From: Candidatus Altimarinota bacterium
GTDB lineage: Bacteria; Patescibacteriota; Gracilibacteria; BD1-5; UBA6164
Length of the DNA: 64,000 nucleotides
Assembly: GCA_013350285.1 (NCBI GenBank)
Contig: JAAXWG010000003.1
Coordinates: 124,001 to 188,000, forward strand
Direction: 5' to 3'
The position numbers were made by a program, and so were the translations under genes. A model generated the notes under the pieces. It saw only the letters and a program-made list of their open reading frames with translations, ran no database searches and was not told the DNA's origin. Positions 12,346 to 46,147 of this stretch are shown piece after piece. Positions within the stretch are counted from its first letter, which is position 1, and every line of letters begins with the position of its first letter.

Positions 12346-13317
12346 TTCTACAGGAATACAAGCAAAATTTGCGGGAGTATAATTATAAACTCTTGGTTCA
12401 GGTCTAAAAGAAGTGAGAATACCATTGTAAGAATAGCTAGAACCAGAATAAGAAGAACTTCTTTCACTTGGAGTATAATTATAAACTCTCGGATCGGGTC
12501 TAAAAGAAGTGAGAATACCATTGTAAGAATAGCTAGAACCAGAATAAGAAGAACTTCTTTCACTTGGAGTGTAATTAAATACTCTTGGTTCAGGTCTAAA
12601 AGAAGTGAGAATACCATTGTAAGAATAGCTAGAACCAGAATAAGAAGAACTTCTTTCACTTGGAGTATAATTATAAACTCTCGGATCGGGTCTAAAAGAA
12701 GTAGTTATATTGTATGCAAGATTTTGTATAGTTGCTCAGCTTCATGATACTCATTTTTCTACTACATATTTAAATATTCTTGGTTCAGGTCTAAAAGAAG
12801 TAAGAACACCATTGTAAGAATAAGAAGAACCAGAATAAGAAGAACTTCTTTCACTTGGAGTATAATTAAATACTCTTGGTTCAGGTCTAAAAGAAGTGAG
12901 AATATTTGAAAGATTGATACTTGATCAAGTAGAACAATATACTCTTTCAGTTCCACTAAGACTTATTCTTTCTTGAAGAAAAAGAGTTTGATCAAGTTTT
13001 TTTATAGAATAATAATTTTCTCTTATTATAAAATTTTCTTGTATCCATCATTTTTTTTCATCATCATAAACTATCTTTATCCAGTTAAATCCTTGATTTT
13101 TTATAGGTTTTCCTACTATTTCACCTCTTTCTCATACTTTTATTGTGGCAATTTCAGTTGAGTGATTTGAAGGAGTTTTTTTAAGAGATATTTCAAAAGA
13201 ATTATAAGCAATGGATTTTTTTTCATATTCTATAAGACTATTTTCTTTTGCCAAAGCAAAACTAAAAGAAAAAAGGCTAAGAGAAATAATAAAAATAAGA
13301 ATTTTTTTTCAAAACAT
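12343..13317 (-). CDS. Secreted SH3-like protein with 32-residue tandem repeats
   Basis: A 324-residue protein. Residues 1-22 are a signal peptide (KK then a hydrophobic core ending FALA). Residues about 50-95 look like a bacterial SH3 domain, with IKVGERGEIVGKPIKNQGFN followed by WIKIVYDDEKKWIQE. The C-terminal two-thirds is made of repeats of about 32 residues: FRPEPRVFNYTPSERSSSYS then GSSYSYNGILTS. Six FRP(E/D)PR motifs are present. One unit is interrupted by a segment (about VEKGVSGSGATIQNLAYNIT) that breaks the register by one codon. The repeats are rich in Ser, Tyr and Arg, unlike the Lys/Ile/Asn-rich proteins around it. It could be a surface or wall-binding protein; the function is unknown. 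Confidence 0.8.
12385..12915 (-). repeat. Tandem 96-bp coding repeats
   Basis: The word GGTCTAAAAGAAGT recurs at 12401, 12497, 12593, 12689, 12788 and 12884. The first four are spaced exactly 96 bases, then 99, then 96. Units are nearly identical at DNA level and alternate between two versions of the FRPxPR codons (TTGGTTCAGG versus CTCGGATCGGG), suggesting recent expansion by unequal recombination or slippage, possibly of a two-unit block. Confidence 0.9.
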
Positions 13318-35132: not shown

Positions 35133-36338
35133 ATGAATGAAGAACTTATTAGTACTCCTGCAATGAAGCAGTATTATGAGATAAAAAATGAATATAAGGA
35201 TTGTATTTTATTTTTTCGTATGGGGGATTTTTATGAAATGTTTGATGATGATGCTCATATTGCTCATAATGTCTTGGGAATAGCTATTACGACAAGAAAT
35301 AAAAATGCTTCTTCACCAACTCCACTTGCATGAATTCCTTATCATGCAAAAGAAAAATATCTTCCTCTTCTTATAGGAGCTTGATATAAGGTAGCTATTG
35401 CAGAACAAGTCTCTGATCCAAAACTTAAATGAATTGTAAAAAGAGAAGTTGTGAGAGTTATTACTCCTGCAACACTTCATTTGGAATGAGAAGAATATGA
35501 AAATAATATGTCAACAAGCTTTAGTGTCGCTATTGTTGAAGAAAATTGAAAATATGGAGTAAGTTTTCTTGATTTGACAAATAATTATTGGTTTTGTAGT
35601 GAATTTACAAATTTTGATACAATGTCTTCAGAAATATATAAAATATCTCCTAAAGAAGTAATTTTAGAAAAAAATCTCTTTGAGGATACAAATGTGAGAA
35701 ATCTTTTTGTAAAAAAATTTAATCTCAATATTTATTATTTTGAATCAACAAAAGAAGCAAAGCAAAAGCTTTGCTCTCATTTTTGAGTAAAAAATCTAGA
35801 ATGATTTTGAATAGAACAAAAATTTATTGCTCAAAAGGCATCAAGTCTTCTTTTGGAATATTTGGAATGAAATCAAAAATCAAGTATTGATTTTCTTGAT
35901 AAAATTCATTTTGAAAGTTTTTCTCATTTTTTAGAAATGGATGAATCAACTCTTAAAAATCTTGATATAATTTATAATTTTTCTACAAAATCAAAAACAC
36001 TTGGAACTCTTTTTTGAATCATAAATGAAACAAAAACTTCAGCTTGATCAAGATTTTTGCATCATAGTCTTGTTAAACCACTTAAAAATAAAAAAGAAAT
36101 AGAAAAAAGACAAATTTTTATAGAAGAATTTTTGAAAAATAAGATTTTGTTACAACAGGTACAAGAGCGATTAAAATATATTTCTGATATTGATTCTATT
36201 ATGACAAGACTTGCTCTTTGAAGAAGTAATTGTCGTGATTTACTTCATCTCAAAAAATCACTTCAAATGATAAATGAAATATTTGAGCTTGTAGAAAAAT
36301 CGTGAACTGAAACACTCAAAGAAATATTACTAAAATAA
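35133..36338 (+). CDS. mutS: DNA mismatch repair protein MutS, N-terminal half only
   Basis: A 401-residue protein; complete MutS is about 850. Domain I is intact, including the mismatch-reading Phe33-x-Glu35 in [11 protein letters not shown] and the [26 protein letters not shown] block. The connector domain and the start of the core domain ([40 protein letters not shown]) follow. The frame then meets a real TAA at 36336-36338 just after KEILLK. The rest of the lever, the clamp and the whole ATPase/dimerisation domain are absent, and holA starts 4 bases later. No ATPase half is found in any frame nearby. The product could bind DNA but could not signal. Loss by deletion, a gene split elsewhere, or an assembly join are all possible. 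Confidence 0.85.
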
Positions 36339-44743: not shown

Positions 44744-46033
44744 ATGAAAAAAATATATCTTATTGATGGAAATTCTTTTATTTATCGTATGTTTTTTGCT
44801 CTCCCAGAGTTTAGTACTTCTGCTTGAAAGATAGTAAATGCTACTTATTGAATAGCAAAATTTTTTGTAGGTCAGCTTATAAAAGAAAATCCTGATTATC
44901 TTATTTTTATACGAGATGCAAAAGGTAAAAATTTTCGTCATGACTTATTTGCTGATTATAAAGCAACAAGAGATAGAATGCCTGATAATTTGAGAGAACA
45001 ATTACAAGATATAAATACTCTTGTAGAAACTATGGGCTTAAAAGTAATAGAAGAACCTTGATATGAGGCCGATGATATTATTGGAAGTATGGCAAAAAAA
45101 TATAGTGATGATTATGAAATTTATATTTTGACAGGAGATAAAGATCTCTATGCATTGGTAAATGAAAAAGTAAAAATTTATGATACTCTTAAAAAAAAGA
45201 TTTTTTGACTCAAAGAAACAAAAGAAAAATTTGAAATAGAGGCTTGTTTTGTAAGTGATTATCTCGCAATAGTTTGAGATAGTTCTGATAATATTCCTTG
45301 AATTTCTTGAATTTGACCAAAAAAAGCAGTTGTGCTTATCAATGATTTTTGAAATCTTGAAAATATATATGAAGTAATAAAAAAATTAGAATCTTGAGAA
45401 ACAATAGAAATGAGTGATGAGGCAAAAAAAGTTTTGTCTGGAAAAACTCTTGAAAAAATAAAAGAGGGAAGAGAAGTAGCTTTTTTATCAAAAAAACTTG
45501 CAACTCTTGATACAGATGTAAATATGTCTCATTTTCATCTTGATGATTTTATTTTTCATAAAGATAAAATTCTTTCTTCTGAAGTAAAAAAACTTTTTAA
45601 AGAGTTTGAATTTTATAGTCTTATAGAATGAGAAAAAAATGAAGATGAAAAAAAATGGGAAGATATGAATCTTAAAGTACAAATAATTGCGGATAATGAA
45701 TGACTTGAAGAACTTGAAAAAATAATCAAAAATTACAAAGAAATAGTACTTGATACGGAGACAACAAGTCTCAACACCATGGAGGCAGAGCTTGTATGAG
45801 TTTCTATTTTTTTAGATGAGAGTCACATATATTATATAAATTTTCTTCATTCTGGACCTTCTATTTCTCGTGAAAAATGAAAACAATTTTTAAGAAATAT
45901 TTTGGAAAGTGATACAATAATTATCGGACATAATTTGAAATATGATTTAGAAATTATAGAAAATTTTTTAGATACTGATAAAAATATAAATAAAGAAGAA
46001 AAAAATTATAAGAAACAAGCAAGTTTGTTTTAA
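44744..46033 (+). CDS. polA: DNA polymerase I, 5' nuclease and partial 3'-5' exonuclease only
   Basis: A 429-residue protein; complete Pol I is roughly 850-930. The 5'-nuclease domain (1 to about 300) is intact: LIDGNSFIYRMFFALPEF, YKATRDRMPDNLREQ, YEADDIIGSMAKKYS, LTGDKDLYALV and the helix-hairpin-helix GDSSDNIPGISGIGPKKAV. A 3'-5' exonuclease-like domain begins with Exo I Asp337-Thr-Glu339 (VLDTETTSLN) and Exo II GHNLKYDLEII. It ends at KKQASLF and TAA before Exo III and the whole polymerase domain. The stop codon lies inside the left arm of an inverted-repeat element (46028-46147). The next gene is htpX. The 5' nuclease could still work; polymerase activity could not. Confidence 0.88.
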
Positions 46034-46147
46034 GGAAGGTTTGAAAAACTAAAATCCTTCATTTTTTAAAAATGAATTTCTCTATTTTAATAGATTCCTG
46101 CCTTCGCAGAAATGACAAAAAGTTAGTTTTTTAGAGTTTCCTTAAAT
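46028..46147. mobile_element. MITE-like inverted-repeat element at the broken end of polA
   Basis: The left arm TTTAAGGAAGGTTTGAAAAA (46028-46047, continuing CTAA) and the right arm read in reverse, TTTAAGGAAACTCTAAAAAA (46147 downward, continuing CTAA), agree at 18 of 24 positions, with nine identical bases at each end of the arm. Between them is a locally GC-rich palindrome, TTCCTGCCTTCGCAGAAA (46094-46111). There is no coding capacity. Size, terminal inverted repeats and the lack of a gene fit a miniature element. No clear target-site duplication is seen. Confidence 0.6.

Follow-up and report, generated by a model that had tools for sequence, protein, structure and literature searches.

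The window analysed here, a stretch of 64,000 nucleotides from the draft genome (G000; 8 contigs) of a Candidatus Altimarinota bacterium, carries on its forward strand the N-terminal half of polA, the gene for DNA polymerase I (Pol I), whose remaining part is encoded by a second, unlinked gene. Read with genetic code 25, in which TGA specifies glycine, the frame at 44744-46033 (+) is open for 429 amino acids and includes 14 in-frame TGA codons. A Pfam scan of its product matched PF02739, PF01367 and positions 2-93 only of the 173 in PF01612, the polymerase domain being absent; the gene encodes a 5′ nuclease followed by the first half of a 3′-5′ exonuclease domain. The 5′-3′ exonuclease (flap nuclease) domain occupies residues 3-271 (44750-45556, +) and the incomplete 3′-5′ exonuclease domain residues 313-407 (45680-45964, +), in which are found the Exo I motif D337-T-E339 (45752-45760, +), corresponding to D355/E357 of Escherichia coli, and the Exo II motif N397-xxx-D401 (45932-45946, +), corresponding to N420/D424. 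The C-terminal tail (residues 411-429; 45974-46030, +) closes with the peptide QASLF (46016-46030, +), by motif of the type that binds the sliding clamp, for which the consensus is given as QL(S/D)LF or QLxLF, mostly C-terminal, in the available text of PMC9690074 and PMC4549789. The AlphaFold model of the N half has a mean predicted local distance difference test score (pLDDT) of 90.5 and is of low confidence only at residues 414-429, in the tail, where pLDDT falls below 50 from residue 414 onwards; its structure matches are flap nucleases, and also the Klenow structure 1kfd (102 columns, root-mean-square deviation 1.5). A gene for the DnaN clamp is present in the genome.

As a first-pass annotation of this DNA had observed, the frame terminates before the polymerase domain at a TAA (46031-46033) within one arm of an inverted-repeat element, and no polymerase fragment lies downstream of the element, the next genes encoding an M48 peptidase and an SLH-domain protein. 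The element (TTTAAGGAA...TTCCTTAAA; 46029-46147, without strand) measures 119 bp and overlaps the last phenylalanine codon and the stop codon. Its 40-nucleotide arms are 73% complementary, and the corresponding RNA fold has an energy of -33.2 kcal/mol (z -4.8).

The genome contains a single match to the family-A polymerase domain PF00476, on contig C1, within a frame of 486 amino acids (G000:C1:34687-36147; start MAKFYDTLLGEYI); no full-length polA was returned by the PF00476 profile search of this genome, in which that frame is the sole family-A domain. It covers PF01612 positions 102-167 and the whole polymerase domain (479 bits), and its AlphaFold model (mean pLDDT 89.7) finds its best fold match in Bst Pol I (template modelling score by query 0.92), with Klenow structures at 0.90-0.91. 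Aligned to the Klenow chain, the N half corresponds to positions 23-108 and the C half to positions 117-604, with a gap of about 8 residues; the cut is located between Exo II and Exo III of the 3′-5′ exonuclease domain. Note also that a strong hairpin followed by eight T (L001:1125-1180; z -5.5) lies directly before the start codon of the C half and is terminator-like for the upstream gene.

A split found throughout the order

The division of polA is a trait of the lineage, found at the same place through the order, and not an accident of this genome. Our survey comprised 60 genomes, namely the one that contains the window, 35 others of its family (f1) and 24 of the same order (families f2 and f3). 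The N half was detected in 55 of them and the C half in 55, with both present in 52; N half only was found in G024, G028 and G032, C half only in G002, G022 and G033, and neither in G006 and G048. Joined halves were found in none of the 60 genomes searched, the C-half loci, taken as frame plus flanks, being without similarity to the N half. A frame of 878 amino acids in G058 was considered as an intact polA and rejected, as its first 410 residues match no family above the cut-off and an internal methionine is available as the start of the C half. Both halves lie in six genomes (G005, G008, G017, G027, G034 and G054) on the same contig, 21-124 kb apart, and G017 is a single-contig genome of 1,343,103 bp. 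Complete N halves end shortly past the Exo II region, about 20-30 residues after the Exo II helix, and the C halves of f1 have a possible start 2-5 residues ahead of a conserved YDT. Start codons of the halves were picked nearest to the window's own start, which favours agreement; counted independently of this choice, 26 of 32 f1 C frames are preceded by an in-frame stop at a distance of no more than about 10 codons. The alignments hold 35 of 57 N halves (A1) and 31 of 57 C halves (A2).

Phylogenetic trees were built on every third f1 and every second f2 sequence. In the C-half tree, the sequences of the order group as one clade with a Shimodaira-Hasegawa-like approximate likelihood ratio (SH-aLRT) support of 100, and a single clade uniting all C halves with that of G061, a genome of another family (f5), is not rejected (approximately unbiased test, p-AU 0.807), although one origin is not thereby proved. 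In the N-half tree the halves of the order cluster, and G061 is unplaced in the deep part. The two halves of G061 are adjacent in one frame with a single TAA between them, the N half ending in QLSLFS (L173:2603-5344), an arrangement that looks like fission in place in this one genome; a search of 40 genomes for further cases of this kind found none, the only matches besides G061 being three f1 genomes. Elsewhere in the class a family-A polymerase is rare: 158 of the 192 genomes sampled gave no match, and nearly all of the matching ones belong to the window's order. What is usually found there is a 5′ nuclease on its own, in a frame of about 300-340 amino acids, with a clamp-type tail in 18 of 20 (L208-L227) and more loosely in one other. 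In the wider phylum the matched polA frames are mostly 700-1000 amino acids long, and both parts stand in one frame in 19 of the 20 that were fetched.

Catalytic residues, selection and the clamp-type tail

For the exonuclease, in E. coli numbering, we take the catalytic residues to be D355, E357, N420 and D424, carried by the N half, and Y497 and D501, carried by the C half. With two sequences cut by contig ends excluded from the residue counts (the N half of G020 and the C half of G003), the former four are present in all 32 complete N halves of f1 and the latter two in all 32 complete C halves. The nine carboxylate positions checked in the 5′ nuclease are all kept in f1 (33/33), and the family-A polymerase residues R668, D705, R754, K758, Y766, D882 and E883 are kept wherever the sequence is present, one X aside. 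Of the 21 f2 sequences on each side, 2 retain D355 and none retains D501, and in f3 (n = 2) and G061 (n = 1) most exonuclease catalytic residues are lost on both sides.

Both halves are under purifying selection, the ratio of nonsynonymous to synonymous substitution rates (dN/dS) being below 1 in every unsaturated comparison and the frames being open. These features, together with the catalytic residues kept in f1, led us to reject a pseudogene or gene fragment, the latter being how the N half had first been described. Expressed as a dN ratio, the C-side exonuclease half against the polymerase domain has a median of 0.85 (22 f1 pairs) and 2.23 (17 f2 pairs), and the N-side exonuclease half against the 5′ nuclease a median of 1.71 (19 f1 pairs) and 3.23 (17 f2 pairs), the pairs not being independent.

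Bacterial clamp-binding motifs also occur in a hexapeptide form, QLxLxL. Loose forms included, a clamp-type C-terminal peptide is present in 53 of 56 N halves; the pentapeptide or hexapeptide form ends 29 of 32 sequences in f1 (three more f1 sequences being looser), 20 of 21 in f2 and the only one in f5, and neither of the two in f3. Among controls it was seen in 2 of 520 background frames (8 more loosely), in 0 of 55 C halves and at 0 of 20 C-termini of intact PolA proteins. The intact enzymes have QxxLF elsewhere, in the linker that joins the 5′ nuclease to the Klenow part, in 56 of 97 proteins with both anchors (drawn from 79 GTDB loci, 19 Patescibacteria and E. coli; reversed-sequence control 0), and the same motif, looked for in the linker of the split N halves, was found in none. 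A clamp-type motif thus seems to occupy the linker of the undivided enzyme and the C-terminal tail of a nuclease that has been separated from the polymerase. The linker QxxLF of intact PolAs from many bacteria (L248-L327, L228-L246) is in its own right a candidate clamp site.

A proposed two-gene polymerase and its alternatives

We propose, with a probability of about 0.78, that the two genes encode a conserved and functional DNA polymerase I whose N half is tethered to the clamp and whose halves meet to rebuild the proofreading domain. Gene A (44744-46033) would contribute the 5′ flap nuclease, the half of the exonuclease domain with Exo I and Exo II, and a flexible tail with its clamp-binding-type peptide, and gene B (G000:C1:34687-36147) the Exo III half and the polymerase. 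The two proteins are predicted to associate via the divided exonuclease domain, the proofreading site being rebuilt from residues of both, and the clamp would hold the N half at nicks and Okazaki junctions, such that flap removal and gap filling could be brought together without a covalent link. Because neither protein alone can be a 3′-5′ exonuclease, the constraint on both f1 halves is best explained by their assembly. The clamp link may matter as well, since the freed nuclease has a clamp-type tail and intact PolAs often have the linker motif. In the sister families f2 and f3, where the exonuclease catalytic residues are gone, only docking would be left, plus clamp tethering in f2.

The sequences lean slightly towards a more far-reaching form of this proposal, that of a heterodimeric Pol I with a proofreading site made from two proteins and a nuclease recruited by the clamp as FEN1 is by PCNA. 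Its subunits would then come together reversibly, and their exchange on the clamp could act as a switch for proofreading and for the link between flap removal and gap filling; the wider class might represent the next step, in which the polymerase subunit has been lost and the clamp-tailed flap nuclease remains alone.

Several observations weigh against the two-gene polymerase. The six genomes with one half only have a stated completeness of 80-90%, and the tail motif is missing in f3 and in G043. Even in f1, the N-side exonuclease half is under looser constraint than the 5′ nuclease. Moreover, the difference between f1 and f2 in their catalytic residues amounts to one or two evolutionary events rather than a series of independent ones. 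In f2 and f3 the exonuclease remnant has outlasted its catalytic residues, so that a working exonuclease is not required for the split gene to be retained.

The strongest alternative, although we regard it as unlikely, is that the two gene products no longer work as one enzyme: one would be a flap nuclease bound to the clamp, the other a polymerase resembling Klenow, and the exonuclease halves would be leftovers of the fission. The loss of most catalytic residues from both halves in f2, f3 and f5 speaks for it, as does the 5′ nuclease found alone elsewhere in the class, about 310 amino acids long and clamp-tailed, in genomes that lack a family-A polymerase. However, all six catalytic residues, divided between two genes, are invariant among the complete f1 sequences, the C-side exonuclease half of f1 evolves no faster than the polymerase domain, as its median ratio of 0.85 indicates, and neither side can be an exonuclease without the other.

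The first-pass annotation had instead suggested that the halves might have been parted by an exchange involving two copies of the inverted-repeat element, and a recent breakage of this type has in its favour that copies adjoin both halves in this genome and that the stop codon lies within the element. The element does recur, a search of this genome at E<=1 giving 48 matches of which four approach full length, and the polymerase domain was indeed located elsewhere, on C1, with a copy about 90 bp before it (C1:34542-34597); that copy, however, is diverged, partial and 83% identical. The split is found throughout the order in relatives without the element at that point, as none of 55 N-half loci of relatives has it at the 3′ end. 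Since the conserved clamp-type motif precedes the stop, the reading frame ends where that of the relatives does. An exchange between copies is accordingly very improbable as the origin of the split. It remains correct that the element supplies the stop codon, but this is a habit of the element at other copies, whose ends TTAAGGAA...TTCCTTAA supply the stop codons of neighbouring genes as well (one flank at L003, both flanks at L005), and not the cause of the division; at polA the element is a bystander. The sole element match among the 55 relative loci is a repeat core inside the N-half frame of G023 (L137:1916-1951).

Joining of the halves after translation, by a split intein, or at the RNA level has precedent in other split polymerases and is here scarcely to be expected: the Pfam scan of either half gave no intein match, and there is no room for intein halves because few residues flank the break on both proteins, the N half continuing for about 20-30 residues past the Exo II helix and the C half starting 2-5 residues before YDT. 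Finally, an assembly artefact at the repeat, conceivable in an 8-contig draft with a repeated element, can be dismissed, as the split occurs in dozens of assemblies and misassembly is excluded as its cause by the halves sharing a contig in six genomes, including the single-contig G017.

mutS and comparison with known systems

The same window carries the N half of mutS (35133-36338, +), which encodes 401 amino acids with domains I, II and part of III. Its complementary and unlinked partner, a frame of 461 amino acids with MutS_V, was identified at G000:C2:74010-75395 (L329:862-2247), the C part having been searched in this genome only. The N part is present in 31 of 35 f1 relatives as frames near 400 amino acids, and in 0 of the 24 f2 and f3 genomes; in G011 it consists of two frames (G011:C4:50416-51746). 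The earlier remark that the truncation of polA and mutS in one window was unlikely to be coincidence holds in that both genes are split, but the explanation lies in gene fission within the family, not in a rearrangement of this genome. Like polA, the split mutS of f1 has complementary, unlinked halves and a conserved short N part; unlike polA, it was seen only in f1. The two splits in one family make the fission of repair genes in reduced bacteria a testable subject. A tandem array with a period of 96 and 5.5 copies lies elsewhere in the window, at 12374-12904.

DNA polymerase I is a textbook single-chain enzyme. The PolA proteins of E. coli, Taq and Bacillus stearothermophilus have the same three domains as the pair described here, and f1 has the same catalytic residues; they differ in being one polypeptide, whereas here two unlinked genes are used and the cut lies inside the 3′-5′ exonuclease domain. 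Here the nuclease half ends in the clamp-type peptide, whereas in intact PolA the motif sits in the linker. The literature searched, open literature only and with a search that was partly weak, gave no description of polA as a divided gene in these bacteria. A lineage-wide split through the proofreading domain, with catalytic residues kept on both pieces, provides a natural experiment in tolerating the division of an enzyme. It also touches on the use of the sliding clamp by Pol I in Okazaki fragment maturation, a matter left open in the available text of a 2024 review (PMC11253446).

The split polymerase of Nanoarchaeum is of family B and is unrelated to PolA. A split polymerase is already known from this source: the available text of PMC3655853 describes a DNA polymerase, which it names DNA polymerase I, from two genes (NEQ068/NEQ528) in the tiny symbiont Nanoarchaeum equitans, and lists the same polymerase as not split in the related Nst1. 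As far as that text goes, the archaeal enzyme is likewise made from two genes but is not split in Nst1, whereas here the split spans an order.

The PCNA-interacting peptide (PIP) of FEN1 is C-terminal. FEN1 is likewise a 5′ flap nuclease working with a sliding clamp, and the likeness to the N half is by motif; FEN1 has a PIP box, whereas the bacterial nuclease has QxxLF or QxxLxL and carries half an exonuclease domain. FEN1 is named as a partner of PCNA in the available text of PMC9690074. Closer at hand are the stand-alone 5′ nucleases of the class (L208-L227), which are without the exonuclease half and nearly always without a family-A polymerase in the genome, and which share with the N half of polA both the nuclease domain and the clamp-type tail.
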